From Cyathus striatus (taxonomy: Eukaryota > Basidiomycota > Agaricomycetes > Agaricales > Nidulariaceae): a stretch of 64,000 bases of DNA. The translations under genes were made by a program, and so were the position numbers. Position 1 is the stretch's first letter; every line of letters starts with the position of its first letter. Location: assembly GCA_025738555.1 (NCBI GenBank), contig JAOVFP010000008.1, positions 1,426,001 through 1,490,000 of the forward strand, in the 5' to 3' direction. Under the pieces are notes generated by a model that was not told the DNA's origin, did not search any database, and was given only the letters and a program-made list of their open reading frames with translations. This document shows positions 7,621 to 64,000 of this stretch, one piece after another.

Positions 7621-8526
7621 CAATTCCCAAAAATTGCTAAGCTCCTAGCGTGGGCATCACAATAATGAGAACTGTAGAAACTATTCAAGGCACGCTCATT
7701 TACTACCTTTTCATTGATCTGGATTGTTCAATAATATTGGAAAAGGGCCCGATACACTCATGCCATGCAGTGCATCTGTAGGACCATTATCATGATCGCA
7801 AAGCACTGATTTCTGGCTTGGTTCTGGTCGTGTCTCATTAGGGATTAATTCTAGGGAACTTTAAGTTGCCGGTGGCTTGTGTGTAAGCATTCCCAATAGC
7901 CCACTGCTAGCACTTGGCCTTGCGTTTCTAGGAGCAGGAGTCAGTACCAGTACTTACATAATGCAAACGTCACTGACATCTCCGGTAGTAGCAGAAGGCA
8001 CCCATTTTCCACCCCACCAAGTTCTAGGCAGTACAGCTGAGTACGTAACGTGAGTGATTCAAACAAAAACATTGAATCACTTCCCCCTCCAAGTAAGTAA
8101 TAATTGCTGTCTAAATGAAATTGAAATCCTACATTCATATTTCCAGGGGAACATTTATTCTTCAGAGTCTAGACTAATATTTATCTTTGACTATCCTTCC
8201 ACTTGTAAAATAAAACATAACATGCATTTTAAGATCAGTCTTTAACTATCCATAAAATTTGAGTAGAACCTGAGTCAACAGGTAATTTGATCTAATAAAG
8301 GAGTAGTTTCAAGTAACCAATGAATACAGGTGGCCACATCTAAAAGCTTATGGTTGCCACCATGTCCCAACACCGCAATACACATCTTGTAGAGGTGTAG
8401 TCCTCTACAGGGTGAGCCTTCCTCAGTCCCAAGTGCGTAAGACCAGTTCTATAGGGAGAAACTAGCTACACAGGTGTAGGGATGATGGTAAGAAAGACTA
8501 AAGAGTGGTGATGTAAGCGAGTCTAC
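7621..8526. other. Downstream flank of the halogenase pseudogene
   Basis: No gene recognised. An 8-bp-stem hairpin (TGTAGAGG, loop, CCTCTACA) lies near 8387-8410. The rest is unstructured. Confidence 0.4.
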
Positions 8527-10385: not shown

Positions 10386-10445
10386 GGGAATAATGCTTAT
10401 TGTAATTTGAAAGCTGGTTTATATACGCGGTCATATGGCACATAT
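10386..10445 (-). promoter_or_regulatory. Remnant promoter of the halogenase
   Basis: On the minus strand TATATAAACC lies at about 10415-10426, some 40-60 bp upstream of the first readable halogenase codons. No ATG is left in a plausible place between them. A MITE inserted immediately upstream, at 10446. Confidence 0.5.
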
Positions 10446-27563: not shown

Positions 27564-28210
27564 CACTCCTGTCTGGCGACCTTTTTGCCATTCGCAAAAT
27601 TCATCCAAATTCGACCTCAATTATTTTAAATATTGACTAAACATTTTGGTTGATGCAATATTATCACTATTGGCTGATGCAAAATCATAGACAAATATTA
27701 CATTTTGTACATATTTTGTATGAATACAAATGATTCTTATTGTTCTAATTTTAGCTTCATCAACATAAGTGTCAAATGTAACGTTGTGAACATGTTTTGA
27801 CCTCACGCAAAATTTATTGTTTTGCATGACTGCAAAACCCATGCAGAATGAAACATTTTGCTTTTGCTCTTAAAATAACAGAACTGTTGAACCTGTTATT
27901 TTAAGAGAAAAAGCAAAATGTTTCATTTTGCACGGGTTTTGCAGTCATGCAAAACAATAAATTTTGCATGAGGCCAAAACATGTTCACAACGTTACATTT
28001 GACACTTATTTTGATGAAGCTAAAATTAGAACAATAAGAATCATTCGCATTCATACAAAATATGTACAAAATGTAATATTTGTCTACGATTTTGCACTAA
28101 CCAATAGTGAACATTTTGCGACAGCCAAAATGTTCAGTCAATATTTAAAATAATTGAGGTCGAATTTGGATGAATTTTGCGAATGGCAAAAAATTCGCCA
28201 GACAGGAGTG
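27564..28210. mobile_element. Fold-back element: 647-bp near-perfect palindrome
   Basis: The left arm (27564-27881) starts CACTCCTGTCTGGCGA and the right arm (27893-28210) ends TCGCCAGACAGGAGTG. The arms are about 318 bp each, match at the great majority of positions, and are separated by only 11 bp (AACTGTTGAAC). There is no coding capacity: the open frames are the two arms translated. It is inserted in copy A between the pectinesterase fragment and the resumption of duplicated sequence near 28300. No clear target duplication was found. Confidence 0.9.
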
Positions 28211-28888
28211 AAAGTGAGATCCCGACCACGATCCACAAATTGCCTTATAGGGGAATCCAAAGGTCCCTATAACCCAACTACCTTAAAAGGTAGTGGGAAT
28301 AAATATATGCACGGAATATAAGTGGATTACTTACATTCTGCAACTTGTCTGCAATGATGAGCTACATACGTAGTACGTACGACGGAATCGCACCTCGGAG
28401 AGTCGGAACCATCGGGTCGCACCGTTCAATGAACATTCCCACGATAGCCAAACCTCGGAGAAACACGCGAGCGGGTATCATGTCATGGGCTTGCTGTCAA
28501 CGACGCCGACGATACGATATGATGGCCATGGGTGTGCCGGGCAGGCGGGATTTGGATCATGGATGACCCTCTTCCCTCCTTCTATATTTATCTTTATCTG
28601 ATATGAGCAAGAGAAGACACATGTATACCATGCCAGCAGAGCGAGGAAGTTGAGAGGGTACATAAATAAAGAAAGAGTATGCGTTAGATCGCTTTTCCCC
28701 ACCTTTTCCCCTTTCCTTTTGCATGCGCTTAGCTTAGTGGTATACCACACAATCTATTTAACCCGCACCCGCGATCCCCCGGCATCCAGACCTCAGCCAA
28801 CTCCACTCATCACATCACATCATCCCGTTCACCCTTCCTACCACCACCACCCCATAGCCAAGTAGGAGGGCAGCAAGCACGACCCACA

Positions 28889-31450: not shown

Positions 31451-31455
31451 TAGGC

Positions 31456-32046
31456 CCATTGGGATGTTGTCCGAAACTTACGTACCCTCTTTGATCCAAC
31501 ATCTTCCCAGAAGAATGGCTGAGAGACACAGATTGGACGGCACCGAGACAGCTCGAGTCATCGAACCTCACAGAAGTATGGTTGAGTGGAGCTCGTTGAA
31601 GGTCGACGTATATATGGGTCCAGAAGGTGGACTGGCACGTGATCACGGTGTTGAACCTTCGTGACACACTAGCCAAGGAAAGTGGAAGAAGCAGGGGGTC
31701 GAGGGTCGAGGGTCGTATTGTAGCTTGTAACGTCGTTTCCTCATCTATATCCGTCGCGTCTCCAATTCCCTCTATTATGAAGTTTGGCCCTGCTTTCTCG
31801 CTTCGAAAAGACAAAGATGCTGGAAGTACTTCCTCAGCTCCTAAGACTCGCAGAATGTCGAAAATCTCTCCCAGAATCTCGTTCGGCAGGAGTTCGATTG
31901 GAGGTATATCGACGGATGGTCGAGGACTAATATGAAAACCACTGACAGACAAAAGACTGTTCACTGGACTCGCGCCGCGTTCTGGTACAGCATTGCGAAT
32001 AGCGTTGAGATCAAAAGAGCTTGGAGCGCTGGAAGGCGATTACATG
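31456..32046 (-). pseudogene. F-box protein gene, truncated copy A
   Basis: Copy of 45497-47098. The start codon at 32044-32046 is followed immediately by TAA (copy B has CAA), so translation from the normal start ends after one codon. The F-box block (ELLPNEILGEIFDILRVLG) is still readable. About 350 bp corresponding to 46295-46648 are missing, and everything downstream of the LDQRGYVSFGQ region is lost at the junction with ACH1 near 31455. Confidence 0.9.
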
Positions 32047-32479
32047 ATACCTGATGTATAGGTTGTACGATGGAAACGAATGAAAACTCCGTCCATACTA
32101 GTTGTTATATGGTTTTTAACGAAATATGAACTTTCATAAACTGAGAATCAGGACAATTTGAACATTTGAAGACTAAAGAAAAGGTGATGATGGACATTCG
32201 GTTCAAGTTCGAGGACGTTGATCACCGTTGATGACGATGATGAACTTCAAGCACGTGCTAGTTTGTCAGTAGCTCCAAAAGCAAACAAACCCACAAAGAC
32301 TTCAAAATCGAGATAGGGTTCGAATTAGAAGCTTTGCGTAAACTATGAACCGGAAAGTATGACACTACATGCCGCTGTCTCGTCTGGAGAGAGCGCATGA
32401 AATAATTAGAGGAAGCACAAAAAAATATTCTTTTATTTCAACAACAAATACATCTTAGTCTTTAAAAAGTACCTCAACA
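32047..32479. other. Spacer between F-box and WSC genes, copy A
   Basis: Closely matches 47100-47518 in copy B; it is the F-box promoter side plus the 3' flank of the WSC gene. No extra gene recognised. Confidence 0.5.
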
Positions 32480-34150
32480 CTAGGATTGATCAGTACTAGC
32501 GTAGTAGGGCGTCAATAGTAAATATACATCCTGACAACTCGAAAGGGTGTAATCTGCATGGTTAGCAATAGGAGAATAAATTACCGTCAGAATTCCATTA
32601 GCAGTGGTATTCGGACAGATGCTGAAGCGGTCTGTATACCCTCCAACGGAGAGAAGTGGGAAGCCAATGAATAAGCCTTCTGGCGAAACGGGATTTGGCT
32701 ATAAGTGAGGGTAGTTTTGGCCTTTTATAAAATTTTAAAACTAGGAGGATGAGCTTGCCTTCGCACAGAATTGAGCATATGCTGTAGAAGTCGAGAATCC
32801 AAGGAATGTTAAAGGTTCCCCTGCCTGTGGGGCGATAGGTATTGGGGTACCCCAGAGTCCGCTAGGAGACAATATGTTGTGGTACAGCTCAAAGCCCCCA
32901 CTACTGGAATACGGGCATGTCTTGCAATTCTAGGTGCATTCTTCAGTCACGTATCTCGGAGACTGCCTCTCAAAACTTACTGTGATAACGATATGTTGTA
33001 AAGATTCATAAATCAGATCCAGTGTAGTAGCGAACATCTGAGGGCCAGTTCCATTGACCGTGTTAGTGCTGCCTTGTCTAGGTATGAATTGAATTTCGGA
33101 GTTCTGAAAGGAGAAACTGTCTCGTCCGGTAATGCAGGTGCTTGAACTGGGAGGTGTAGCAGAATTGTCTTGGTACAGTGCTAATCGAAGTCCTGCACCG
33201 CAGAATTCTGTGCTATCACCGGAGCATACCATATTGCATTCGCTGTCATCGACAAGTTGTCCATAAGGCATGTAGCTGTCACACCCTGCATTAGAAATGA
33301 TGGATACGTCAGATGGAAATTGTAGAGATCACAAGGTACGTACAGCATTCGCTACCATATTCAAGGCCAGCAAGAGCGTACCCCTGCTGTTTGCATTGAG
33401 CTGTGCAATATTCAGCGCTATTGGCGTTCGAGGGAATAGTGAGTCTGTAGGTAAGACTACGAGGGGGGAAGTCACTGCAAAGGGTATCGCGTTATTACGA
33501 TTGAAATATTTTGAAAGGTCGTATGAACTGCGATTAATACGTACACTCGACATCCTTTGTACACCCATGTCCCAACGCTTTGCTTGATAGACGGCCCGGG
33601 GGTGACAACTGTTCCACTTGACGAGTATATGAATATTCTGCTGGAGCCTCCACAAGCTTGCGTTGGGTCTCCAGTGCATGCAGTGTTACAGTTTCCAGCA
33701 TCTGCAGGAGCTCCTGGGCTATGAATGACGTTATCGCAATCTATAACACTATACCATCAGAAGAGGTTTCTAAGAGTAAGCAGTGAAAACGTACAGCACT
33801 CCTACGTGTGAGTCACACAATAAGTGCGAAGCTCAAGCGGGTAGATAACTTCTAACGTACCCGTGCGTATTCAACTCCCGCATATTTGTAGTTTCCGGCG
33901 TTGCAAAACTGAATGCATGAAAGTGGAGTCATTGCGGTGGGACTCGTGTATGAACTTGTGCTGAGAGTTCGTGAACTTGCGGAGTCTGTGTAGCAGCCTA
34001 ATGAGCTCCAGCCTGTTGGTAGCTGAGCCTTCACCAGCACCTGTTAATGAGAAATATGATGCTCAGAACTGTTGTACGCAAATACGTCCATAACTCACTG
34101 GTAGAAGGATCGCAAACAATGAAACCTTGAAGACAGAAAGTTTCGGCATC
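32480..34150 (-). CDS. Secreted protein with two WSC domains, copy A
   Basis: Read on the minus strand: ATG at 34150, signal peptide (MPKLSVFKVSLFAILLPV), intron, then WSC domain 1 (GWSSLGCYTDSASSRTLST to the ACGGS...R region, cysteine-rich). After a linker with GTWVYKGCR comes WSC domain 2 (SLTYRLTIPSNANSAEYC to NMVCSGDSTEFCGAG), then a non-cysteine C-terminal domain ending TPYYASTDQS before TAG. Introns have GT-AG ends at the same positions as in copy B. A five-codon in-frame deletion (about 32905) and scattered substitutions separate it from copy B, but no stop or frameshift was seen. WSC domains bind carbohydrate, so a cell-wall or extracellular role is likely. Confidence 0.8.
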
Positions 34151-34944
34151 TCGAAGAGATGGAAGTGGACTCGATTCAAGCACAACCCCCAACTTCCTAT
34201 ATACCTTCGTCTTTTGTACCCATTCATTCAGGAACAGCCAAAACAGCCATTACGTATGTCCCGAGTCCTCCAGAGCCTACCACAGTGGTATAACCTAAAC
34301 TTATGTCGACGGATAGAAATAAATAGACATACTTTTTATAGCTATAAAATGATTATCACAGTCTGTCACAGTCCACACATACCGCATTGCACTCAACATC
34401 GAACAGAACATTACCCCCTTGTACCTGCGGAAACGATGCGGTAATATGTCATGTTAGACATCAGGTTTCTGACGAGATTACTCCGTTCGTATTTCGGGCC
34501 ATATTTCATTGTTCGTCCTGAGAGTAAGCTTGCATTGTGCGGCTTCAGAAGGTGAAATTTCCGTTGTCAGCGCTTGGAGAGTAACACGTTCGATCTAGGT
34601 AAGCCCGCCCCATCACTCTATCACTGTCATTCTGCAGAACACGAATGCTTTCAGAATCCGATGGTAGACGAAGTTAGATTTATTTCTTGCTCGAGAAAGT
34701 ACATTAGAGTCTGTAGTAATCCACCTCATCTTTCCTTGCGTCAAGAGTTGATATTCGTCGTGAATATAAATATGAAGCTGATCCACAGGTGAATTGTGTA
34801 CGCAAGCGGGACGTGGCCCCAGCATCGGGAACACGGGAGCTGTGATCGTCACATCCGAGCGACCGAGGATGCACTGAGATAAAAGAAACCATGCTAGGGA
34901 TATTGGTGACCGGTGCCAGTGACTATTCAATGTATGTTGTAAGG
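34151..34944. other. Upstream flank of WSC copy A
   Basis: Matches 49211-50080 in copy B, with small indels (for example about 70 bp present only in B near 49415-49485). No gene recognised. Confidence 0.5.
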
Positions 34945-37399: not shown

Positions 37400-38109
37400 T
37401 TTCATGGTACAGCCTGGTTGGAGTGGTGTTTCTTCCTTTCTCTATTTTCCAAGTCATTTTGTTTGGAATAGGGGAGCTTTGAAGGTACTCGTTGGGTGAA
37501 TGGTGTATTATGTGCATAGTGCAAGGTGGTATGTCTTTACTATCCTATGTAGTATTTAGTACATAGCGAGGTATAAAACTGAGCTGCACTCGTAATATCG
37601 TGTCGGGGTAGTTAATAGTACTGAACGACACGCATAGAAAAAGCGGCGAGCCACTTCCCGCTCCGATCCGGGCAGTGCGAGAGCGAGGGCGAATGGGACG
37701 TACGAGCGAGCTCACGGTGATGCGCCGATACGATACAATACGCTTATTATTATACGTTACTCGTTCTTTGAATTTGCTGAGTCGGCGAATCGTATTGCTT
37801 AATACGTTATTAGCCAGTTTGAATAGGTCCGAGGTTCTTAGAAGGTGAGCGATATATCGCTCCCCATGTCTTCTTTTCCTGCTTTTAACCTGCTTCTAGG
37901 AAAGAGAAGCGTGAGGTTAATTGGGGTGTACTACGTACGCACGCGTCCGATGGGGAGGGGAGGGAATATTTATGATTGGCGAATGGGATGTGTGGGGTAT
38001 GCACTGATGTGTCCGGGGTGGGGGAGGGGCTGGGGCTAGGGCTGGGTCCTGGGGCAGGACAGGTGGGTCGGGTACCTACCTATTCTATTCCCTCCATACG
38101 ATAGAAAGG

Positions 38110-38690
38110 TATTATGCACGGGATATATGTAAGTGGATTACGACTGGGGATTATACTCTCCAACATTGAGCTACGTAGTACGTACGACGGAATCGCACTC
38201 GCTCGGGGGTCGGAGCCATCGGATCACACATCGCACATATTCCCGCGATCGCCAAACCTCGGAGAAACACGCGAGCGGGTATCATGTCATGGGCTTGCTG
38301 TCAACGACGCCGACGATACGATACGATGGCCATGGGTGTGCCGGGCGGGCGGGATTTAGATCATAGATATCCCTCTTCCCTCCTTCTATATTTATCTTTA
38401 TCTGATATGAGCAAGAGAAGACACATGTATACCATGCCAGCAGAGCGAGGAAGTTGAGAGGGTACATAAATAAAGAAAGAGTATGCGTTAGATCGCTTTT
38501 CCCCACCTTTTCCCCTTTCCTTTTGCATGCGCTTAGCTTAGTGGTATACCCCACACAATCTATTTAACCCGGACCCGCGATCCCCCGGCATCCAGACCTC
38601 AGCCAACTCCACCCATCACATCACATCATCCCGTTCATCCTTCCTACCACCACCACCTCGTAGCCAAGTAGGAGGGCAACACAACCCACA
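38110..38690 (+). promoter_or_regulatory. Upstream region of ACH1 copy B
   Basis: This block is strongly conserved with 28310-28888 in copy A (nearly identical over 38285-38690), including a C/T-rich leader (CATCACATCACATCATCCCG) just before the start codon. High conservation in a decaying segment marks a recent duplication; no TATA box was identified with confidence. Confidence 0.45.
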
Positions 38691-43001
<4,311 letters not shown>

Positions 43002-43580
43002 TTATTTAATCGGAGAAGTAATTTTCTTTTTATATAGCATTTTTTGTACAATTTTACTACATATTTGAGATGTTATCGTATAATTGTTTGGTTGAGGCGT
43101 CTATCTACCTATTATTCCCAGGCGCCTGTCAAGCGTGTATTCGAATCTTGACGTTCCTGAAGGGAAAGACTCGCGAACCTCTGGAGCTACAATACATTAA
43201 TTAAACTTGTACCCTTTCTGTCGAGTGCACTTCTAGCTGCCTTGACATATCACTGCGCCTGGCAGAATTGTCCATCAGAGAAATATTTGTCGTTAAACAA
43301 ACGCTTTACATTTCATTACTACTGTTGCCTTTGAGTATATATCCTCCTGCTCGAATGCTTCACTGCCTCTCCTGGAATTATTATATGTCGATATGATTGT
43401 TGTTAAACACACGCTATCCTTCGCATGAATCTCCACATTCATTTTTCGCATGGATAATATCATTGCATATCTTCAATTTCAAGGTAATGAGCATATTAAG
43501 ATGATTAAACGATATCGAACATACCACAATATCAAGGATTGTTATTGGCCATCTAACATGCAGCGTGAGTAGCTAGTAGA
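43002..43580. other. 3' flank of ACH1 copy B
   Basis: Absent from copy A, which was deleted from inside ACH1 to inside the F-box gene. Nothing recognised. Confidence 0.4.
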
Positions 43581-43589
43581 GTAGAAAAC

Positions 43590-44240
43590 ATACAGTGAAC
43601 GAACACTATTGTCAAATCAATACTGAGAGAGACCGCTCTCATCGTGTAAGGCAGTCGAGCTGCAATGATTCCTTCCGCTTTAGTTAGTATCACTAAAATT
43701 TAATTTGAGAAACAGAATACTCACCACAAACAAGAACCCACGTCCAAAAAGCCTCTTTAACGAGTCGCTTGAGCAAAGGACTTGTGGAAACGCGTGGTAA
43801 GAGTTGGTGCTTTCGAATGGTAAGGAAAGAAAGAGTTGTATGCACTACCACTACAGCGATGCTGCAGGATATACCGCGTTAGTTAACCTCCTAATATATT
43901 GAATAGAATAATGGTTACATATGTGAAGTAAATGATATACCGTACTCCACCCTGGGCTTTACATGCCGCATCAAATTGCAAGGCTGAAATAAAGTGTCGG
44001 CCAGATAGGATGCTTACAACACCATCCATAAGAAGCAGAATAAACAGGCATATCATTATTCTCCAGCCTTTTCCGTAGAGCGCATAGACCTTATTTACCA
44101 GCATTAGTGACATGTTAATGGAATAAAAATTTGAAAATATCGCACCACGAAGAGATAAAAGGATGGTAAATGACATCACGAGAGTGTACGCATACCACAT
44201 GACAATGGAGAACCATGTCCTACATGTCGACTGATGTATG
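43590..44240 (-). pseudogene. Multi-pass membrane protein fragment (DUF6533-like)
   Basis: Minus-strand text has helix-rich blocks of the basidiomycete seven-helix DUF6533/6534 type: WYAYTLVMSFTILLSLR, then VYALYGKGWRIMICLFILLL, FDAACKAQGG, SIAVVVVHTTLSFLTIRKHQ, LLKRLVKEAFWTWVLVC, and a final RLPYTMRAVSLSIDL. The expected N-terminal YD-LLT-EV motif was not found upstream, and one exon junction after LLSLR lacks a canonical in-frame donor (GGTGCG, as if one base were inserted). I therefore call it a probable pseudogene or fragment. Confidence 0.5.
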
Positions 44241-44407
44241 GGTATGATAAAGATAAGCGAAAGTACGCGTTGATGCTGTTTGGAAATAAGATGGGAATAT
44301 AATGGTCGGGAACGGGTTTCACGGCATATGACTACATGAGTAAGGCTATTTGAAATGGACGAAGAGAGGCTCTCACAAGCTACCGATAACTGTGGTGTAT
44401 CGTACAT

Positions 44408-45496
44408 AGAGGTACAGAACCTTTACAGGGTTTGCAAAGATTGGTGAGGTCCTGGTTTCATATTTCAGCAATTTATATTTATGTAGAAGCAAAAGAAGAT
44501 TCATCTCCAGATGCATTTCCATTCATCTTCCAATGTAATTAAATAGTCCCATACTATTAGCGCAACAACAGCACCTGCAATTTATAAGCATCAGCTTGTA
44601 ATCCATTTTAGAGATTGATACGCACACAAAGACTGATTTCTAAAAATTACAGTGAATTGTACTTCAGCTGAAGGGAGCTCAGCTGTAATAATACTAGACA
44701 TCTCTGTCCAACAGGTCAACACGCCTATTTCCTTTTACGAGGTGCACAGAGGAAGAACGCAAGATATTTAAACTGGCTGCTATATGTAAAGGGCCTATTT
44801 AAGCATCCCTTTCTGGTGGTTCGTAGACGATTAACTTGAGGCTTTAAGTAACGATATTGTGGCGTCTTATCATCAACCTATCATTGGTCATATATCATAG
44901 AGAAGAGTTAGTCGTAATATGTCCGAATGAAACTTCGTCGGAGTCCGAATAAGTAGTGCCCGGACTGTCCATAAGTTACATGCGGGCATTGCGCGCGCAT
45001 GCTCTACATTGATTTTATAAGACGGTTAACCATCTCCAAACGAAACTGCTACCGGACAGTGTAATAAATTATCTCTGCCCTTTGAAGTTGCTCAATGACC
45101 CTCAGTCCCTTGGGAAACCCATTGATCTGTTCATAATTCAGCTGTCTATCAGTACTATATCTTGACTACATCTACCCTGGGGCCTGAGGTCGCCCTGAGC
45201 CACACAGGCTACCTCTGCCACGCTAAGGAATTTTGAACCAAATCAGTGTAAGTAGCACTTTGTTACTACTACTATATACTACGCGGTCTCGATAAAAATG
45301 ATAATACTTAACGCTATGCACGATGAACATTGAACGAAAGTACTACAAAGAGGATCTTGAAGCCAAAAGCCCAATAATAAAACGTAAAAATCAGTATATA
45401 CATTATAGTAAACTAAATTCCAGAATATACATTAGATGTTGCGATCGACAAGCAATCCTTTAAGCTACAACCTATCCAAGAAAATCTTCATCCCAC
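44408..45496. other. Intergenic, nothing recognised
   Basis: Low coding potential. It lies between the membrane-protein fragment and the 3' end of the F-box gene and is present only in copy B. Confidence 0.4.
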
Positions 45497-47098
45497 TTAC
45501 GAAGCAGTAATCATCAACACCGGTGGCGGCCTAGGCAAACACTGTCCCCCAACAATAACAAGCTCCAACAGTGGACACAAACTCGGATCTCGCAGCAAGT
45601 GATACGCTTCCCCAGCTCCATTAGCACCACTCTTATCATGTAGCTCGAGTGTCCGCAAATTTGGAAATGCACGTAAGAAGAATGGGACAAGACTCCCTAA
45701 AGGAAGTCCAGAGAGAATGAGGGTGTGTAGGTCCCGGTAAATAGGGTTGACTTTCTTTGTTGATACTGGAGTCGGACTACCGGAGGGAAAGGCAACATTA
45801 TCTACTTGAGCGGGAGAGGAATCTCCGTTCGGCGAGGAACTTTCTTGTGCAATAACGAATGTATCTCGCAAGAAATGCATAACACATTCCCATGCAGCCT
45901 GCGTAAGGTCATCGAGCTTCAAAGTTTCCAACAAAGGCGTATATGTGGCCCTTAGGAATAAATGGAACACATCAAACTGCTGCCTCAAAGTGATCCCACA
46001 AATTTCGAGATGACGCAGGTGCTGCGGGGTAAAACAGGGTATGAATGGGTTCCGAATCGAACTAGCCTCCGTCCTTACGTTCGTGTTAAGGCGGAATGGT
46101 ATACCAATCGTCGTACCGACGACGCTAAGTCTCTCCAGACACCGCATTGCGGAGACGATAGGCCCATTGGGACGCTGCCCAAAACTTACGTACCCTCTTT
46201 GATCCAACAGCGCCCCAGAAGAGTGGTTTAGAGACACAGATTTGACAGCACCGAGACAGCTCGAGTCACCGAACCTCACAGAAGTATGGTTGAGTGTGAA
46301 TGATTTGAAGTATGCAGGGGTGGGGTAAAATGGTCCGAAGAAGGCCGGGTTTGATGGTGTAGGTGAGCCTCGTGGTTGAGAGAGGGACAGTGATGTAAGG
46401 AAGGGAAGGGGGCGATTGCTGAATTGTCTCGTGACAGCGTGGAGGACATTGTTTGGAGCTTCGAGGTTGATGCTACTTAGTTGGGCAGCGTATTCGGCTA
46501 GGATCGACCAACATTTCATATGCAGAGTTTCGTCCTCGAAGCTGTACCCTGCAGAAGCCCTATTGTCGGGAAACCGAACTTTAACGTCAACAGCACGCTT
46601 CGATGACCGCGATATGATGGTGGCGAGGATAGAAGGTGAGCGAGCTCGTTGAAGGTCGACGTATATATGGGTCCAGAAGGTGGACTGGCCAGTGATGACG
46701 GCGTTGAACCTTCGTGACACGCTAGCCAAGGAAAGTGGAAGAAGCAGGGGATCAAGGGTCGATGGTCGTATTGTAGCTTGTAACGTCCTTTCTTCATCCA
46801 TATCCATCGCGTCTCCAATTCCCTCTATTATGAAGTTTGGCTCCGCTTTCTCGCTTCGAAAAGACGAAGATTCTGGAAGCACTTCCTCAGCTCCTAAAAC
46901 TCGCAGAATGTCGAAAATCTCTCCCAGAATCTCGTTCGGCAGGAGCTCGATTGGAGGTATATCGACGGATGGACGAGGACTAGTACGAATATCGTTGACA
47001 GAAAAAACACTGTTCACTGGACTCGCACCGCGCTCTGGTACAGCATTGCGAATAGCGTTGAGATCAAAAGAGCTTGGAGCGCTGGAAGGCGATTGCAT
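45497..47098 (-). CDS. F-box domain protein, copy B
   Basis: A single uninterrupted 533-codon frame on the minus strand, starting MQSPSSAPSSFDLNAIRN. The F-box lies at about residues 50-110 (IELLPNEILGEIFDILRVLG, then PLLLPLSLASVSRRFNAVIT, then TFWTHIYVDL), the form usual in mushroom F-box proteins. The remainder has leucine-rich-like segments with scattered asparagines (HLRHLEICGI, LETLKLDDLT, DLHTLILSGL, PNLRTLELHDK). F-box proteins link substrates to SCF ubiquitin ligases through Skp1; the C-terminal repeats would bind the target, which is unknown. The family is large and fast-evolving in Agaricomycetes. The damaged duplicate is at 31456-32046. Confidence 0.88.
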   Translation of the reverse strand: MQSPSSAPSSFDLNAIRNAVPERGASPVNSVFSVNDIRTSPRPSVDIPPIELLPNEILGEIFDILRVLGAEEVLPESSSFRSEKAEPNFIIEGIGDAMDMDEERTLQATIRPSTLDPLLLPLSLASVSRRFNAVITGQSTFWTHIYVDLQRARSPSILATIISRSSKRAVDVKVRFPDNRASAGYSFEDETLHMKCWSILAEYAAQLSSINLEAPNNVLHAVTRQFSNRPLPFLTSLSLSQPRGSPTPSNPAFFGPFYPTPAYFKSFTLNHTSVRFGDSSCLGAVKSVSLNHSSGALLDQRGYVSFGQRPNGPIVSAMRCLERLSVVGTTIGIPFRLNTNVRTEASSIRNPFIPCFTPQHLRHLEICGITLRQQFDVFHLFLRATYTPLLETLKLDDLTQAAWECVMHFLRDTFVIAQESSSPNGDSSPAQVDNVAFPSGSPTPVSTKKVNPIYRDLHTLILSGLPLGSLVPFFLRAFPNLRTLELHDKSGANGAGEAYHLLRDPSLCPLLELVIVGGQCLPRPPPVLMITAS

Positions 47099-47518
47099 GA
47101 TACCTGATGTACAGGCTGTACGATGAAAACGAACGAAAACACCGTTCGTAGCAAGTTGTTATATGGTTTTTAACGATTTATGAACTTTAAGAAACTGAGA
47201 GTCAGGACAATTTGAATATTTGAAGGCTGAAGATGGACGTTCGGTTCAAGTTCGACGTTGATCACCGTTGATGACGATGATGAACTTCAAGCACGTGCTA
47301 GTTTGTCAGTAGCTCCAAAAGCAAACAAACCTACAAAGACTTCAAAACTGAGATAGGGTTCGAATTAGAAGCTTTGCGTATACCATGAACCGGAAAGTAT
47401 AACGCTACATGCTGCTGTCTCGTCTGGAGAGAGCGCATGAAATAATTAGAGGAAGTACGAAAAAATATTCTTTTATTTCAACAACAAATACATCTTAATC
47501 TTTAAAAGTACCTCAACA
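47099..47518. other. Spacer between F-box and WSC genes, copy B
   Basis: Counterpart of 32047-32479. No gene recognised; it carries the F-box promoter and the WSC 3' end. Confidence 0.5.
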
Positions 47519-49210
47519 CTATGATTGATCAGTAATAGCATAGAAGGGCGTCAATAGCAAATACACATCCTGACAACTCGAAAGGGTGTAATCTGCATGG
47601 TTAGCAATAGGAGAATAAATGACCGTCAGAATTCCATTAGCAGTGGTATTCGGACAGATGCTGAAGCGATCTGTATACCCTCCAACGGAGAGGAGTGGGA
47701 AACCAATGAATAAGCCTTCTGGCGAAACAGGATTCGGCTATAAGTAAGGGTAATTTTAGCCATTAATGAAAATTTAAAACTAGAAGGAGGATGAGCTTGC
47801 CTTCGCACAGAATTGAGCATATGCTGTAGAAGTCGAGAATCCAAGGAATGTTAAAGGCTCCCCTGCCTGTGGAGCGATAGGTATCGGGGTACCAAAGATT
47901 CCGTAAGGAGACAAAATGTTTTGGTACAGCTCAAAGTTATAAAGAGGTGCCTCATTACTGGAGTAAGGGCATGTCTTGCAATTCTAGGTATACGCTTCAG
48001 TCACGTTTCTCGGAGACTGCCTCTCAAAACTTACCGTGATAACCGTATGTTGTAAAGATCCATCAGTCGAAGGATCAAGCGTAGTAGCGAACATCTGAGG
48101 GCCAGTTCCATTAACCGTGTTAGTGCTGCCTTGTCTAGGTATGAATTGAATTCCGGAATTTCCAAACGAGAAACTGTCCCGTCCTGTAATGCAGGTGCTT
48201 GGACTTGGAGGTGTAGCCGAATTATCTTGGTACAGTGCTAGTCGACTTCCCGCACCACAGAACTCTGTGCTATCACCGGAGCATACCATATTGCATTGGC
48301 TGTCATCGACAAGTTGTCCATAAGGCATGTAATTATCACACCCTGCATTAGAAATGATGGATACGTCAGATGGAAATTGTTGAGATTGCAGGGTACGTAC
48401 AGCATTCGCTACCATATTCAAGGCCAGCAAGAGAGTACCCCTGCTGTTTGCATTGAGCTGTGCAATATTCAGCGCTATTGGCATTCGAGGGAATAGTGAG
48501 TCTGTTGCTAAGACTACGAGGGGAGAAGTCGCTGCAAAGGGTATCGCGTTATTACGATTGAAATATTTTGAAAGGTCGTATGAGCTACGATTAATACGTA
48601 CACTCGACATCCTTTGTACACCCATGTCCCAACGCTTTGCTTGATAGACGGCCCGGGGGTGACAACTGTTCCACTTGACGAGTATATGAAGATTCTGTTG
48701 GAGCCTCCACAAGCTTGCGTTGGGTCCCCAGTGCATGCAGTGTTACAGTTTCCAGCATCCGCAGGAGCTCCTGGGCTATGAATGACATTATCGCAATCTA
48801 TAACGCTATACCATCAGAAGGGGTTTCTAAGAGTAAACAGTGAAAACGTACAGCACTCCTACGTGTGAGTCACACAATAAGTGCAAAGTTCAAGTGGGTA
48901 GATAACATCTAACGTACCCGTGCGTATTCAACTCCGGCATATTTGTAGTTTCCGGTGTTGCAAAACTGAACGCATGAAAGTGGAGTCATTGCGGTGAGAC
49001 TCGTGTACGAACTTGTGCTGAGAGTGCGTGAACTTGTGGAGTCTGTGTAACAGCCTAATGAGCTCCAGCCTGTTGGCAGCTGAGCCTTCGCCAGCACCTG
49101 TTAACGAGTTGAAGTATGATAATCAGGTATGTTATACGCAAATGAAGTTCGTATCTCACTGGTAGAAGGATCGCAAATGATGAAATTGTGAAGGCAGAAA
49201 GCTTCGACAT
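47519..49210 (-). CDS. Secreted protein with two WSC domains, copy B
   Basis: Minus-strand ATG at 49210 begins a signal peptide (MSKLSAFTISSFAILLPV). After the first intron comes WSC domain 1 (GWSSLGCYTDSTSSRTL... with C-QFC, ECYCDN, CNTACTGDP-ACGGS), then GTWVYKGCRV. A second intron follows, then WSC domain 2 (SPRSLSNRLTIPSNANSAEY, YCTAQCKQQGY, CDNYMPYGQL, CNMVCSGDSTEFCGAG). The C-terminal domain contains NCKTCPYSSNE and ends FYAITDQS at TAG 47519. All chosen introns (donors such as GTACGTATTA and GTAAGTTTTG) are short and in frame. The domain layout fits extracellular carbohydrate-binding proteins; no catalytic domain is recognised. It is nearly identical in layout to copy A. Confidence 0.85.
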
Positions 49211-50128
49211 CTTGAAGATATGGAAGTGGATTTGATTCAAGCACAACCCCCAACTTCCTAGGTACCTTCGTCTTATGTACCTATTCATTCAGGAACAGCC
49301 AAAACAGCCATTACGTATTCCCGAGTCCTCCAGAGCCTACCACAGTGGTAAAACCTAAAGTTATGTCGGCGGATAGAGGTAGATAAACATACTCTCTATA
49401 GCTATAAAATGATAGGAACAGAACTAGCAGCACAATAATAAATTCGACTGTCTTGTGAAGCCGATGGTTCCTCAAGAGAGTCTATCACAGTCTGTCACAG
49501 TCTACACATACCGCAAAGCGCTCGACGTCGAACAGACAATTACCCCCTTGTACCTGCGGAAACGATGCGGTAATATGTCATGTTAGACATCAGGTTTCTG
49601 ACGAGATTACTCCGTTCGTATTTCGGGCCGTATTTCATTGTTCGTCCTGAGAGTAAGCTTGCATTGTGCGGCTTCAGAAGATGATCTTTCCGTTGTCAGC
49701 GCTTAGAAAGTAGCATGTTCGATCTAGGTAAGCCCGCCCCGTCGCTCCATCACTGGCGAGAACCTTCTGCAGAACACGAATGCTTCCGGAATCCGATGGT
49801 AGACAAAGTTAGATATATTTCTTGCTCGAGAAAGTACATTAGAGTCTGTAGTCATTCACCTCATCTTTCCTTGCAGCAAGAGTTGATATTCATCGTAAAT
49901 ATCAATATGAAGCTGATCCGCAGGTGAATTGTGTACGCAAACCGGACGTGGCCCCAGCATCGGGAACACGGGAACTGTGATCGTCGCATCCGGGCGACTG
50001 AGGATGCACCGGGATCAAAGAAACCATGCTAGGGATATCGGTGACATGTGCCGGTTGTTCAATCATAATGTATGTTATAAAGATCGTGAGTCCAGGTGAT
50101 AAAAATTCAACAAAAACTAAAGGGACAC
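49211..50128. other. Upstream flank of WSC copy B
   Basis: Matches 34151-34944 in copy A. No gene recognised. Confidence 0.5.
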
Positions 50129-57479: not shown

Positions 57480-58127
57480 TTACTCTAGCGACTCTTCTAC
57501 GTGATGTCCATCAGCTTGAAAGAGTTTCACAACATACGTTTTCAGTTCCTCCGTAGTATCTTTCCACTCCTCCGACTCCAGAACTTCCGCCACGTCATCT
57601 CCCAAAACCAAATCGAACCGATCGCCTGCCCATGCACCGCGAGTGATATGCGGAAGGTCATCCGGAATATGCATGCTTGCTGATGGATCCGAGGAGCAGC
57701 AAATCCGAGCTAACAGTGTGTGTCCTAATGAAATCTTCGATACTCCCCGCCACTTTCCTAAATCGTCTCCACGAACAAACTCCTTCTTCGAAAGATTCCG
57801 CAAGATAATATTGCTGTAATCTGCATAACATCGGCCGATATTAGGGCCCTCCTTGTAACGCGAGCTGACCGTGTCGTAAAGTCCTTCGTCGTCATATCGC
57901 TCGAGCTTAGCGAGCTCATGGTCGGTGATAAGACCACCAGGCAAGTCGTCTAACGATGAATATTCTCCCAAGCATAGGACACGGTCTCCTGCCCAGCTGT
58001 CCTTCGAATGTCGAAGAGTGTACAGAATTTTGTCTGGGGTTCGGTTAAAGTACCATTCTCCAAGTTTGGACCATACGTCGATATACTGTTTCTTATCCAA
58101 GTTAACTATCACCCACGATTGACCCAT
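57480..58127 (-). CDS. Conserved basidiomycete protein of unknown function
   Basis: A single-exon 215-codon frame on the minus strand starting MGQSWVIVNLDKKQYID and followed by KLGEWYFNRTP. Two SWAGDR/AWAGDRFD motifs lie in the middle and near the C-terminus, and a GEYSSLDDLPGGLIT segment lies between. Intracellular proteins with the same MGQSW-x-NLDK start and WAGDR motif are common as uncharacterised single-copy or multi-copy genes in Agaricomycetes. No signal peptide or membrane helix is seen. The function is unknown. The frame is intact. Confidence 0.8.
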   Translation of the reverse strand: MGQSWVIVNLDKKQYIDVWSKLGEWYFNRTPDKILYTLRHSKDSWAGDRVLCLGEYSSLDDLPGGLITDHELAKLERYDDEGLYDTVSSRYKEGPNIGRCYADYSNIILRNLSKKEFVRGDDLGKWRGVSKISLGHTLLARICCSSDPSASMHIPDDLPHITRGAWAGDRFDLVLGDDVAEVLESEEWKDTTEELKTYVVKLFQADGHHVEESLE

Positions 58128-59749
58128 GGTGTTGTCTAGGAGTTATAATGACGAAAATGTAGAGTATTAGAATTTCAGAACACAAGGGAAAAGGCGAAAG
58201 GACGATTGAAAACTTGTTGCAATTGATTGATTAAGTAAGCGTTGTGACATGGACCCACAGGACCACAACTCAACTAGTGTCGCGACTCGCGAGTGAACTA
58301 GTGACACTCAGTAAAAACAAAAAGTCATGCGCAACATGCTTCTATCATTCCGATAGTGCTTTTCGTCATGTGTTCGGCATGTGTGGCGGGGTGTGTGAAT
58401 TTCAAGATTAGAGATAATTTTCGCTCATGTATACAACATGCATAAGTCATGCAAACATCATACATTCGGCATGTGTACTTTTAACTTTCAATTCTTAAAT
58501 TAAAACGTTCCGATGCATATGAGTTTTATTTTTCCTTTGTTCAATGATAAGAACCTCAGGTGTTCGACACATTCTGAGAATATACAGTAAATTTGTCACT
58601 GACCTCGCTCAAATCTCAACATTGTGAGATGGCCTGTATAGTTTTCAATTGAGCACGTAGTAGTATGACATAGACTCGATGACACAGACTCGGCCAACAT
58701 GGTGCATTCAACTGAGCAAAAATTCGTGGTACTTCATAATCTTATAGCCCTCTAATCAAAATCTTGACCCTTGCACTTTCTTATATCATCACATCTGCTG
58801 GCTGTCACTCTCAGTAAATACGAAAAATCATGCAATATCATCTCTATGGCATGCGACAGACATGCATGCCTGTTGCATGACGGGAGGCACTTTTTTCGGT
58901 CATGTATCAGGCATCCGAGCAACAGCTAAGAGTCAGAAGTTGGTATTCATGGCAGAAGCTTAATAAGACATACACATCGGCAAGGTTAATTTATTCATGG
59001 ATATAATGAGCTGAGATTACAACAACTGCCGTCACCTGGAGCTGAGGTAGTGTGAAGGTAAGATTAATCTTAGAGAGATTGATAACGAATTGCCGACCGA
59101 ATGTATGTATACATTGTCAATGTGTATACATAGTGTGTGCTGCCCATAGCTCATTGATAAGCCTAATGTAGTATATACCCAAAGTAATATATTGACGTTT
59201 TGACTTTCGACAGTTGACATGCCGTACCTGGTGACCTGATCACTTGTTAAGTCATTGAAGAGTTCAAGAGTAACTCATGTCAACAAACGAAATGTCGGAG
59301 ACTAACCGGAACCCAAACGGACCATGCCACTGACACATCACTATGGGATACCATTGCACCGGCTCCCATCTACTCAATTTTTAGCCATATAAAGCCACCC
59401 AGAGGAATTGACTTATTCTCATCAGTTGGTTACATTGACAGTTGTGGTGCATACTCTAGGTTCGCGCAATTACTACGTATAAGCATAAAATATGAGGTGT
59501 ATTTATAATATGACAGCATGACAGTGGTGAACACCGGTAATGAGAACGGGCGACGAGGTTTCTATGAATTATGTTTAATCATTCAGGAAACCTGTTTAGT
59601 ACTATGTTATGTAGGGTATGAACATAATTTGCATGTTGCCATGTGGTTTCAACAGTGGTCTTGCTCATAAGAGAGAATGATCAGTTTGTTCAAAAGATTA
59701 TTTCACATCAATAGCCTAGACAGTAATAAGACACTCTTCACATGTACAT
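58128..59749. other. Intergenic between the unknown gene and the RiPP precursor
   Basis: No gene recognised. CATGC-rich stretches recur at 58320-58470 and 58830-58930, both preceded by a GTGACACTCAGTAAAaAC-like segment (58300, 58803), so there is an old internal duplication. Low coding potential otherwise. Confidence 0.4.
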
Positions 59750-60583
59750 TTAAACCTTCTCTTGACGAGCCCAAAACGTATCTGGGCCATTATCAATCCT
59801 CTCTTCGATATCGAAATCGTCGGTTCCAGAAGCCTAAATATAGATACTGAGTACACCAGTCATAATTACACGGAAAGTCATCATACCTCTCTGCGTGCCC
59901 AATAGGTATCCGGGCCATTATCAATTCTTACCTCGATGTCGAAATCATCTGCACTAGCAGCCTAATGCAGGTCTGAGTAACAAATATATATCACGTATTC
60001 TTACCATACCTCTCTACGGGCCCACCAAGTATCAGGGCCGTTATCGACCTTAGGCTCTAGATCGAAATCATCCGTAGCCGCCTAGAAGGAATGTTAGTTA
60101 GCTTCATACGACCGTTGATAGGTAAGACTGAATGAAGTATTACCTCGCGTTTTACCCAGTACGTATTAGGTCCGTTGGCGTAAGTGACGTCGATATCAGC
60201 CTGGACAACGTGTCATTTAGTCGAAAATTATAACTGAATAATTGATCATAGCTACCTCTTTTCTAACCCAATAGCTTTTGGGTCCGTTGGCGTAAGCGGG
60301 CTCTACGCTAACCTCACTATCATCCTGGGCTCGGTGATGTGAATACAATGTACATGATTGTGATTTGAGAGAGTGCCAATTACCTCCCGTTTGGCCCAGT
60401 ACGTATTGGGTCCATTGTCGTACGCGGGCTCTACACTAACCTCGCCGTCAGTAGAATAACCCTAAGAGTATTTGAGCTAGTAAATGTATGAAAACAGGTG
60501 GCATTAATCACCTCCACCGGTGCTGGAGCAGCCTGAACAAAGATGGCAAGTAGAGAGAAGGTAAATAAGACAGAGGACCTCAT
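59750..60583 (-). CDS. Repeat-bearing secreted peptide precursor (dikaritin-type RiPP candidate)
   Basis: Seven exons on the minus strand: 60512-60583, 60384-60461, 60256-60324, 60144-60200, 60010-60081, 59887-59961 and 59750-59833. All introns are GT-AG, 48-62 bp, and all in phase 0, giving 168 residues. Exon 1 is a signal peptide (MRSSVLFTFSLLAIFVQA, then APAPVE). Each of the other six exons (19-27 codons) is one repeat: an acidic spacer, then NGPNTYW, NGPKSYW, NGPNTYW, NGPDTWW, NGPDTYW or NGPDTFW, then A/V and KRE, RKE, KRE, RRE, RRE or RQE. Signal peptide, repeated near-identical cores and dibasic Kex2-type sites define fungal UstA-like precursors and KEP proteins. The UstYa-like oxidase gene starts 502 bp away on the other strand. 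Repeats 1-3 share VxxxY-A/D-NGP; repeats 4-6 share DDFD...DNGPDT. The peptide product is unknown. Confidence 0.88.
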
Positions 60584-61085
60584 TTCAGATGAAGGATGTC
60601 GTTCCACTCTCTCAGTGAGTTGGGGCGCATTATATATCCCAAATTTCGATATAATATACCAGGTAAGAGCTATTCATCTCCGCTAGAAATTACAAATGTC
60701 TTGGAAGTTGGATCAGCGTGGAGTAGTTTGCATATCTGTCGATCATGAGATCAGGTCATGCTCCAAAAATAACTCACGACATGTCACTCCGATGGCGAAT
60801 TAGTGATAAAACTCCGTTAATTTTACAACTGGGGTTGGGGAGTAAGATAATCAGGACCTTGCGAGTGTCGGAGGATTTACGAAACGAGTTTGAAACCGCA
60901 TTGTATCCGATTAGACAGTTATGTTGCACATGGAGGACCAGAGTGTTGGACCTCCATGATGTATGCAAACCTATGCAAACGCATTTCCAGGCACCGTTTA
61001 GTTTTCGAGAAAGAATAGGATGACACCTGTTCCTGTATATTAGATATCAAAGACCTTCGTATTATCTTTCAATAGAATCCTTACC
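60584..61085. promoter_or_regulatory. Divergent promoter between precursor and UstYa-like gene
   Basis: On the minus strand a TATATAATG motif (about 60629-60637) lies about 46 bp upstream of the precursor ATG, a good TATA box. Some 500 bp separate the two start codons, so shared regulation is likely. A 92-codon plus-strand frame (60745-61023) is open but has no recognised family and overlaps the promoter; it may be fortuitous. Confidence 0.55.
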
Positions 61086-62077
61086 ATGGGCAACGATTCT
61101 GCTGAATACCTTCCCCTAGTGGCATCCCCACTCAGCTCCACTGTTCGCGTCGGTCGGTTCGAACGGAAGGGGTTCTTCTCTAATATTTGCCTTCGAGAGC
61201 TTTTCTTTCTCGTCGTTATTGGGTTGCAATCTATAGCCCTAGTCATAACGCTTTCATCTCGAACATCAACTGCCAACCTTGCGTCGACCACCTGCCCTAA
61301 ATCAGGCGAATCATTGCTATACTGTAAGTTTTAGCCCACCCTAATGGTGATGGCTTTGCCACCAACGCTGTTGCTCTATAGCCCCTGCACAGAGAGCGGT
61401 TGAGTACGAAGTGAAGTCTTTCACTTCTGGAAGAGAACACAAGACTATATACCAGGGTCTTTCTGACGATGTGGACCGAGCTTGGGGAGAGCTGTATAAT
61501 CGTAAGTTCACATAATGATTAACCGTTCACTGTGCTTAGAAAATTACAGATACGATCTTGAAAATCCCCAAGAGTGAAGCAGCTCTCCTTCCAAATAAAA
61601 CGTATCCCATCAAAGAAGAGCCAGGATATTACATCGCGGGATTGGATGTTTTTCATCAATTACACTGTTTGGTTAACTTATATCGCTTCGGGCAACTTAT
61701 AACCCTTACTAAATATGTGTTTTCAGAATCTCGTTAGACGAGCCCTTAATAAAGACCACTATCCTAATGATGTTCACCTAACCGAGGAACACATATCGCA
61801 TTGCGTCGACTCCGTACGGCAATCGTTGATGTATGTTTTAACAATATTCGAAGTTACATTCATCTAAAATTGGTTTAGGTGTAATGCTGATATATCGGTT
61901 AATGTGTGGCAATGGAGCGATGAAGTCAAAGGAGTTGTCGGATACAGCACCCAAGCTCATTCGTGTAAAAATTTCAATAAGCTTTTAGATTGGGCCAGGG
62001 ATCATAGGCTACATCATTGGATCGACACAAGGTTTTACATCGATGATGAACTTCCCGATCCTCCTGTAATTAGTTAA
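61086..62077 (+). CDS. UstYa-like DUF3328 oxidase
   Basis: Five exons: 61086-61323, 61382-61501, 61550-61671, 61727-61830 and 61879-62077, all GT-AG and in frame, giving 260 residues. Layout is a short cytosolic N-terminus, one membrane helix (ELFFLVVIGLQSIALVITLS, about residues 38-57) and a lumenal domain. That domain carries both family-defining HxxHC motifs: HQLHC (residues 155-159) and HISHC (182-186, in EEHISHCVDSVRQSLMC), followed by NVW. Proteins of this family (UstYa/UstYb of ustiloxin biosynthesis and relatives in other dikaritin and cyclic peptide pathways) catalyse oxidative cyclisation or other oxidation of peptide side chains. The divergent neighbour is the repeat precursor with conserved Tyr/Trp cores, the obvious substrate. 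No other biosynthetic gene is visible in the window. Confidence 0.92.
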
Positions 62078-63175
62078 GATAACAGTCACAATGTTCCAGT
62101 ACCCTTACATAAGCAGATTACGTAAGCACCAAGAGGTACAAAATGTCAAGTAAGATTAGAAATACTAGATAATTTCGACGAAGTGTTCGGACCCTATTTA
62201 TGGAAAGCCGGACAACCACGCTCAGCTACGTCAAAGTATTTGAGCTCCGACCTTCGGCTCTACGGCTTGCCGCTTATATTCGGTTCAATTTCTCGGTTCT
62301 TCGTTCGCGTACTGAATATTAAATTCTAACCCTTAATTCAAATATCCAGATCGTAGACACATTATCTGATCTACAAACTTATGTTGTAAACTGTATATAA
62401 CATTGAAACTGGTTGGCTATGATACAAGTTACGATTTATAGTGTATGTGGGCTGATAATATGTAAATCCAATAGAATGGATGCGAACGCATACAGTCCCG
62501 CAACCTGTTCACGTATCAAGCTTGAATTGAAACAACGCGTCTACATTATCGCCTCTGCCACCTCCAAACCACTCCCCAATGCTCTCAGCCTCCACCCCCT
62601 TCGCCACAATGCTTGCCACTCGATCAACACCAAGAAAGCCACCTAAATGGTTATATCACCCACTCATGTAACTGGGAGACCGCTTAGCAGTGGCACCTCA
62701 AGATCTAGTCATTTCCTTGTCAACATTTTAACATCTCTTCTACCTCTTCTTATCTTCTCATTCAATCCATGCATTCTACTTAAGAAAACTCATATTTGTC
62801 TGCTTAAAACATTTTACATATTACTGTTGTTTTCTTGGCCTTTCCTCAGCGCAGTTCGCTATTTTAGGTATATGATCTCTCTTCTACTATTTAAACTGTA
62901 CATCTAGGTATATTGCAATTCACACTCTCGAGATCTCGTCTAAGCATCCTTTATTCGTATTCTTTCGCTGTACGCAACGTTCTGCGATGCTCTATTCGAT
63001 CCAAATCGTCAATACCCCAACTTCACTCTAAAAATTCATCTCAGAACTTTGTCTCGAAGTTCTGTCTATTGCTATGTCGTTATCTCTCTCACATACATTC
63101 CTTACCACTCTATTTTGTCGCCTTAAAACCCTAACGCTGGACGGACATGCCAGCGACTTGCATTTATTTGTGTAG
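62078..63175. other. Intergenic, nothing recognised
   Basis: Short frames only (for example 62647-62907, hydrophobic but without family resemblance). 62099-62145 carries copy 2 of the dispersed repeat seen at 20836-20885. A short GC-richer inverted stretch (GAGCTCCGACCTTCGGCTCT) lies near 62240. Confidence 0.4.
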
Positions 63176-63179
63176 GAAC

Positions 63180-63960
63180 CTTCAAAACCAAGTTTACCTC
63201 TTCAGTTCTCAAGATATGTATTTCGTTCTCAAGGCCTCTGCTTCGTTTCCAAGACCTCTACTTAATATTCAAAGTCTTTGCTTTTGATATAAATGTCTCT
63301 ATTTCGGTTTGAAGCTCTGTACTTTATTCCTCATGTCTCTACATCATTCTAAATGATTCTATTTCATTCTCAGGGCTTCCAAGGTCTCTGCTTCTGTCTA
63401 AAGTATTCTGATTTTTCTGAAGGCCTTATTTTTTTTTACGAACATCTCTGTCTCATTCTCAAGATCTCTGTTTATTTTTAAGCTATATGCTTCATTATTA
63501 ATGTCCGTTACAAAGGATTCTGAGGACCTTTTATTCATTACAAACTGTCTGTTGTCCTCAAGGTCTTTGCATCGCTATGAAGCCCTGTACATTGTTCTGA
63601 ATGCATCTGCTTAGTTTGGGAGTTCTATGCCTTCAATCACAAGATCGACGTTGGTCTTAAAAGTCTCTGGTTCATTCTAAATCTCTCTATTATATTCTAA
63701 AGGCATTGCTTCGTTATGAAGCCCTGTGTATCATCCTGAACGCCTCTGATTTATTTGGAATCTCTGTGCTTCATTCTAAAAGTCTGGTTCAATCTGAATG
63801 TATCTATGATGCTCTAAATGTATTTGGAACATTATGAAGATCTGTGAATTGCTCTGATCGCCTCTGTTTCGTTTGAAGGTTCTCGGATTCATTCTCAAAG
63901 TCTCTGAATTGTTCTAAAGGACCTTCCCCTGATGTCAACATCTCTACATTGTTATCAGGG
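63180..63960 (+). repeat. Degenerate minisatellite, about 21-24-bp unit
   Basis: Text repeats a TCTCTGCTTCATTCTCAAGG-like unit about 30-35 times with heavy divergence, for example TCTCTGTCTCATTCTCAAGA, TCTCTGGTTCATTCTAAA and CTCTGTTTCGTTTGAAGG. No gene. Confidence 0.75.
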
Positions 63961-64000
63961 CATTCACAAATTGGTTTGATGAGTGTGACGTACAGTGCCG

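Follow-up and report, generated by a model that had tools for sequence, protein, structure and literature searches.

In the 64,000-nucleotide stretch analyzed here (C8:1426001-1490000, from 107.45 Mb in 24 contigs; hereafter, the window), which almost surely belongs to a bird's-nest fungus, probably a Cyathus, a gene for a repeat-bearing peptide precursor lies head-to-head with a gene for a UstYa-like (DUF3328) oxidase. The precursor gene occupies positions 59750-60583 of the minus strand, and its seven exons encode 168 amino acids in a model that closes in frame. Exon 1 (60512-60583) provides the start codon and, by reading, a signal-peptide-like stretch, MRSSVLFTFSLLAIFVQA, followed by the X-Pro dipeptides of APAPVE; the hydrophobic character of this N terminus was likewise judged by reading only, and similar N termini occur in the relatives P0121 and P0122. 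Each of the remaining exons carries a single repeat with an NGP-x-[ST]-aromatic-Trp core, namely NGPNTYW ending in AKRE in exon 2 (60384-60461), NGPKSYW ending in VRKE in exon 3 (60256-60324), NGPNTYW ending in VKRE in exon 4 (60144-60200), NGPDTWW ending in ARRE in exon 5 (60010-60081), NGPDTYW ending in ARRE in exon 6 (59887-59961), and NGPDTFW ending in ARQEKV and a stop codon, with no dibasic site, in exon 7 (59750-59833). This layout of one repeat per exon adds to an earlier note on the same DNA, which gave the exon counts without this point.

All six precursor introns are of phase 0, run from GT to AG, and measure 48 to 62 nt. Exons 2 to 6 close with two basic residues and a glutamate, and GT follows directly; conservation of this last glutamate may reflect the AG|GT splice consensus in addition to processing. 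In order, the repeats end in KR, RK, KR, RR, RR, and RQ, so that the earlier count of five dibasic repeats in six stands when RK is included, whereas the published KEX2 definition (KR, RR, or KK; PMC9769878) recognizes four of the six (here and below, literature statements refer to the available passages of each source). After repeats 1 to 5, the next stretch opens with EA in four cases and with ED in one. The introns are only 31% identical to one another in ungapped comparison, and either the repeat duplications are older or the introns have drifted.

The oxidase gene (61086-62077, plus strand) has five exons (61086-61323, 61382-61501, 61550-61671, 61727-61830, and 61879-62077) that also close in frame and encode 260 amino acids. 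The product matches PF11807 at 160 bits (E 1e-46; cut-off, 25 bits) and carries HQLHC at residues 155-159 and HISHC at residues 182-186, bearing out the earlier assignment to DUF3328 with both HxxHC motifs. Enzymes of this family are reportedly copper dependent. Both motifs are invariant in an alignment of 26 sequences; in a larger one of 72 sequences, H155, H158, and C159 remain invariant and H182, H185, and C186 are at least 90% conserved. An AlphaFold2 model of the Cyathus striatus oxidase (mean predicted local distance difference test score, 76.9; predicted template modeling score, 0.67) contains one predicted N-terminal helix, at residues 36-66, which would fit a protein anchored in the membrane with its enzyme domain on the lumenal side. 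None of the 45 Protein Data Bank matches in a fold comparison of this model reached E 0.001, and a sequence search of the same database returned no relative, the sole match being at E 0.23. Between the divergent start codons lie 502 bp (60584-61085) that may act as a shared promoter. A bacterial-type promoter scan was set aside as not applicable to fungi.

Both gene models, and their head-to-head arrangement, thus hold as first proposed, and annotated C. striatus proteins back each of them. Among the listed matches, the closest oxidase is a C. striatus protein of 260 amino acids, 98% identical over its whole length, followed by a protein of Coprinopsis sp. MPI-PUGE-AT-0042 at 66%. Of 473 candidates, the search accepted 270 as relatives (E 0.001 or better) and listed 120. 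A partial oxidase of Crucibulum laeve, covering 69% of the length, shows 78% identity, and the listed matches at 56-65% include Phlegmacium, Gymnopilus, Guyanagaster, and Armillaria, together with frames that run uninterrupted on contigs about 1-2 kb long and are probably spliced transcripts. In a 99-row tree, built from the window protein and those listed proteins that reach 225 residues (which left out the partial Crucibulum protein), the window oxidase groups at 100/100 support with the C. striatus oxidase and with three proteins from a single Coprinopsis.

Relatives of the precursor are far fewer. Of 75 candidates in a search with the window protein, one matched at E <=10, a protein of Coprinopsis sp. 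MPI-PUGE-AT-0042 (35%), and a profile built from these two precursors recovered three proteins among 1361, namely the Coprinopsis protein, a C. striatus protein (95%), and a 104-amino-acid metagenome frame. The C. striatus precursor shares 158 of 167 identities over residues 1-167, with all six cores unchanged. The matches of 98% (oxidase) and 95% (precursor) are what suggest Cyathus as the host genus. The metagenome frame contains two more cores, each with KRE and then a valine (GTN codon), as if the same donor site were read through, which suggests a one-core-per-exon layout there too. The contigs listed for the precursor and the nearest oxidase agree in length in each of these two relatives (C. 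striatus, 164,895 bp; Coprinopsis sp., 4,233,156 bp), and the equal-sized contigs are taken as one and the same. A precursor-like repeat gene that seems to share its contig with a homologous DUF3328 gene is thus present in both, and the earlier note's reading, against which the lack of such a pairing in related species would have told, survived this check. All of these relatives of precursor and oxidase are without a name.

The core pattern is confined to this gene in the genome, and the core is conserved beyond it. A degenerate DNA pattern for NGPx[ST][aromatic]Wx followed by two MRN codons (MRN specifies K or R, and also N, S, Q, and H) matched six times in 107 Mb, always within the window precursor, and the backwards-pattern control did not match at all. 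With two mismatches allowed, the pattern matched 92 times forward and 106 times in reverse, against 75 and 73 for the control, with nothing gained over the exact matches. At the protein level, the precursor matched nothing in the genome at E <=10 beyond its own seven exons (four first-look candidates scored). When 14 units were compared (six from the window, six from Coprinopsis, and two from the metagenome frame), V/A13 was present in all 14; N6, G7, Trp12, and E16 in 13 each; P8 in 12; and S/T10 and Tyr11 in 11 each. Position 4 is Tyr in ten units and Ile, Val, or Leu in four, and position 3 is Pro in only six.

Comparison with C. striatus points the same way. Nine of 167 residues differ between the two precursors, none of them within the 66 core residues (hypergeometric probability 0.009, or 0.022 when counting starts after residue 24). 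Among the 15 pairs of repeat cores, nonsynonymous divergence (dN) is 0.04-0.38; synonymous divergence (dS) could be computed for seven pairs, at 1.1-2.8, but not for the remaining eight. The values are rough, with 11 codons per core, but because dN is low relative to dS the core appears to be held by selection.

We consider it likely that the two genes form a minimal, divergently transcribed locus of the Agaricales for a ribosomally synthesized and posttranslationally modified peptide (RiPP) of the dikaritin type, the core of which would be oxidized by the adjoining UstYa-like enzyme. The class-defining DUF3328/UstYa protein and its two HxxHC motifs (PMC12048977) are represented by the PF11807 match and the paired motifs described above; the cores are repeated and separated largely by KR, RR, or KK (four KR or RR, one RK, and one RQ); and the precursor lies 502 bp from the DUF3328 gene, in divergent orientation. 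With secretion judged by reading only, the gene also has the secreted repeats bounded by Kex2 sites of a Kex2-processed repeat protein (KEP). In the proposed pathway, the precursor would enter the secretory route, where Kex2 would cut after the dibasic sites, Kex1 would trim the basic residues, and a dipeptidyl aminopeptidase of the Ste13 type could remove X-Ala starts such as the EA that follows most repeats; the genome has three matches to the Kex2-type P domain and ten to the dipeptidyl peptidase IV (DPPIV) N-domain. The presumably membrane-anchored oxidase would then act on the core, the most likely link being from position 4 to the aromatic pair at positions 11-12, which a turn at NGP may bring near. 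The proposed joining is modeled on linkages known from dikaritins, namely Tyr-Ile links and Tyr ethers (PMC9233826, PMC6514808). The product might serve as a secreted defensive or signaling peptide.

Several observations weigh against this interpretation. Repeats 4 and 6 contain no Tyr (two of six), one repeat ends in RK, and the last is without a dibasic site. Several Coprinopsis repeats are decayed (ENRINAYW, GEGPKLYL), and most UstYa relatives were seen without a precursor, the profile search having given just three proteins. Elsewhere in the same genome, 13 of 15 other UstYa neighborhoods are without an accepted KEP. The clustered tyrosinase (UstQ/PhomQ) and S41 peptidase of the ustiloxin/phomopsin subtype were not found; none of eight genome matches to tyrosinase lies on contig C8 and no match to the S41 peptidase was obtained in the genome, searches that intron-split genes can escape. 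The oxidized or cross-linked product and the expression of the genes are predictions, and the KEP peptides known to date from agaricomycetes were detected in linear or minimally modified form, several of them with a terminal Trp (PMC9769878). The pairing of precursor and oxidase, which the earlier note took to be a dikaritin hallmark best known from ascomycetes, is supported here, but it has precedents in Basidiomycota, where 103 of 1680 KEPs have a DUF3328 gene among the 15 closest genes (1758 of 7878 KEPs overall have such a neighbor; PMC7329392), and RiPP-like genes have been reported from Cyathus olla (PMC11186289).

The precursor may instead be an ordinary KEP, from which cuts of the Kex2, Kex1, and Ste13 types release unmodified pheromone-like or defensive peptides while the UstYa-like enzyme acts on something other than this precursor. 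Two cores lack Tyr, and the KREA that follows repeats resembles the spacers of alpha-factor. Linear Trp-ending peptides and Ste13-type trimming are documented for KEPs of Coprinopsis cinerea, Lentinula, and Pleurotus, or in Pichia expressing them (PMC9769878), and the W content of KEPs is alike with and without DUF3328 neighbors (20.5% and 24.5%; PMC7329392). However, the oxidase starts only 502 bp away in divergent orientation, the pair recurs on equal-sized contigs in two other records (C. striatus and Coprinopsis sp.), and the best-supported tree group of the oxidase consists of the species that have the precursor. We therefore regard a purely linear product as unlikely.

A further alternative arises from the public C. 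striatus record. Downstream of the precursor, on the same strand, lies an open frame of 220 amino acids (57480-58142) with no Pfam match at E 0.01, and residues 168-337 of BDQ17DRAFT_1546090 (P0122; 337 amino acids), the C. striatus protein that contains the repeats, match this frame at 91% over 170 residues. Gene order is accordingly alike in C. striatus, since the precursor record runs on into a relative of the downstream frame. The same record could mean that the repeats are the N-terminal region of a larger protein, spliced to the downstream frame. This is very improbable, however, given that in the window a stop codon directly behind EKV closes the repeat gene, the downstream frame has its own Met and stays open through the 50 residues that precede the fusion point, and the Coprinopsis precursor has no such tail. 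The fusion is probably a gene-model error, because the window gene has its stop and the downstream frame is open before the join. The weakest explanation, that the two genes are chance neighbors or a decaying locus without a product, could draw on the degenerate Coprinopsis repeats and the site lost from the last window repeat but is scarcely credible beside core changes that are mostly synonymous, cores identical to those of C. striatus, and intact oxidase motifs.

Two tandem MBOAT_2 acyltransferase-like genes lie to the right of the window (L033:1439-5403), 3.4-7.3 kb past the oxidase stop, and a methyltransferase-like frame, with matches below Pfam cut-offs, lies 9.3-9.9 kb past the oxidase; neither is assigned to the pathway, although they may conceivably take part in tailoring. 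No P450 match was listed near the locus, the nearest on contig C8 being about 1 Mb away (92 of 669 candidates scored). Of the 57 window frames that reach 110 amino acids, the Pfam scan covered 10, together with both gene products and 10 frames to the right, a scope in which a tailoring gene could be missed.

Other parts of the window hold features of their own. A flavin halogenase-like frame on the minus strand (9668-10482), intron-split or interrupted, lies about 49 kb from the pair and is not assigned to it; the PF04820 match (27.7 bits, within 10018-10482) covers the N-terminal part only and is one of four in the genome. Positions 28000-34500 and 38000-49500 are duplicated segments sharing six blocks of 83-2788 bp at 87-95% identity, and the second segment has weak F-box-like and WSC-like matches under Pfam cut-offs. 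Loose short repeats resembling tctctgcttcattctcaaggtc were noticed by eye at 62900-64000, where G+C is 38%.

Beyond the window, 30 UstYa matches fall into 15 neighborhoods (L016-L032, about 3-6 kb on each side), which were scanned for repeated dibasic units and for tandem repeats. Dibasic clusters alone mean little, as 13 were observed against 11 in a reversed-sequence control of the same 18 sequences. KEPs were accepted in two neighborhoods, L025 and L026, which are similar segments of contig C4 (72-78% DNA identity) each with a UstYa gene and a KEP; these two additional UstYa-KEP neighbors count in favor of the dikaritin-type reading of the window locus. The L025 precursor (L025:8384-9819; C4 about 3,035,083-3,036,520) starts 3.1 kb from the UstYa frame. 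Its first exon (8384-8512) is signal-peptide-like and is followed by 107-bp units, of which Tandem Repeats Finder counted 11.7 copies with 84% matches. Each unit consists of a phase-0 exon of 51 nt (48 in one case), for example TLSKRVPHQYEVLKDEE, and an intron of 55-56 nt, with the consensus TL[SA]KR[VI][PA]HQYEVLKDEE; read in one frame without splicing, the repeats show a stop after each site, and the exon-intron reading gives a KEP. Nine of its 11 introns are 56 nt long and on average 85% identical, and this near-uniformity in size and sequence indicates that exon and intron were duplicated together. Exon 12 holds an in-frame stop, so that the last exons are read only if exon 12 is skipped, or never.

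The L026 precursor (L026:9064-9720; C4:3,059,163-3,059,819) lies 3.8 kb from its UstYa gene and is related to that of L025. Its seven EYGIDEDEALSKR-type repeats all lie within one exon, after a first exon with 77% DNA identity to that of L025. The Tyr-x-Ile-Asp spacing of these repeats recalls the ustiloxin and phomopsin cores. Further matches to the L025 precursor occur at C4:3007846-3008201, with its own signal-peptide-like exon, and at C4:5032016-5032138. The NGP core is absent from both the L025 and the L026 precursors. The cassette layout is therefore not peculiar to the window gene, as it is also found in the unrelated L025 precursor.

Other arrays were not accepted. The 84-bp tandem repeats beside UstYa-like exons at L031:5902-6373 and L032:3452-3916 (contigs C1 and C5) have many stops in all six frames, and a three-unit dibasic cluster in L031 is weak. 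At L022:8774-9364, a 66/132-bp array about 3-4 kb from UstYa is open in several frames, the longest plus-strand frame being without a dibasic site; one frame of this array reads as 11-residue units of the VQRGNFGRE type, again with no dibasic site. L021 also contains a 66/132-bp array that is not among the accepted KEPs.

A broader interpretation joins these loci with the window. Tentatively, and with more doubt than confidence, there could be a basidiomycete cassette-exon RiPP design, in which at least two unrelated precursor families lie by UstYa genes, each core peptide is a single in-frame exon of phase 0, and these exons duplicate with their introns, and in which the single oxidase of the window would make a new NGP-turn cross-link from Tyr (or Ile/Val) 4 to the aromatics at 11-12. 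If so, exon duplication, loss, or skipping would change the peptide set with the frame unbroken. The one-core-per-exon layout may also explain why gene finders miss or mis-join such genes, as seemingly happened in C. striatus.

The kind of locus is known; its core, and the layout with one core per exon, appear to be new within the reach of our searches. The NGP core and this precursor-oxidase pair are not described in the passages of literature examined, with the qualification that Umemura's supplementary KEP tables may list these precursors; likewise, one open literature library yielded nothing on exon-per-repeat fungal Kex2 or RiPP precursors, which is no proof of novelty. Umemura suggested that in Basidiomycota the cyclization motif may differ or KEP cyclization may hardly occur (PMC7329392). 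The locus offers a compact, conserved two-gene test of mushroom KEP cyclization in which both core and oxidase are named. Pleurotus has 16 UstYa-like genes, six of them developmentally expressed (PMC8893723). Within the genus, seven RiPP-like genes are reported for Cyathus olla, and for six of these phomopsin Yc is the most similar protein, at about 30% identity; the available passages of its genome paper name no precursor and describe such enzymes as not yet deciphered there (PMC11186289).

Among better-described systems, plant burpitides, made by BURP-domain copper cyclases, show side-chain cross-linking of the core at aromatic residues (PMC12186524), as proposed here, but through another enzyme family, so that the analogy is functional only. 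Agaricomycete KEPs such as C. cinerea KEP 490115 share with the window precursor Kex2 sites, Ste13-type motifs, and Trp-ending cores, and have a signal peptide where the window precursor has a signal-peptide-like start; unlike the product proposed here, their peptides are linear or minimally modified, and DUF3328 is absent from the main text of that paper (PMC9769878). Ustiloxin (ustA, ustYa, ustYb, and ustQ) and phomopsin have in common with the locus repeats, Kex2 sites, and a UstYa enzyme with a double HxxHC motif, and their signal peptide has a putative counterpart here. They need a tyrosinase, however, and have two and five DUF3328 genes, respectively (PMC7329392), whereas the window pair includes one. 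Asperipin-2a of Aspergillus flavus (aprA/aprY) likewise combines a multi-core precursor, a single UstY/DUF3328 oxidase, and a Tyr-containing core, and it requires one UstY-type protein, AprY (PMC6514808). Its core is FYYTGY rather than YxNGPxSYW, and its cluster has a transporter and a reductase, whereas the nearest recognized neighbors here are the two MBOAT_2 genes. The locus thus resembles the single-oxidase asperipin type, and if its product is cross-linked, it would represent a mushroom dikaritin with a new core.

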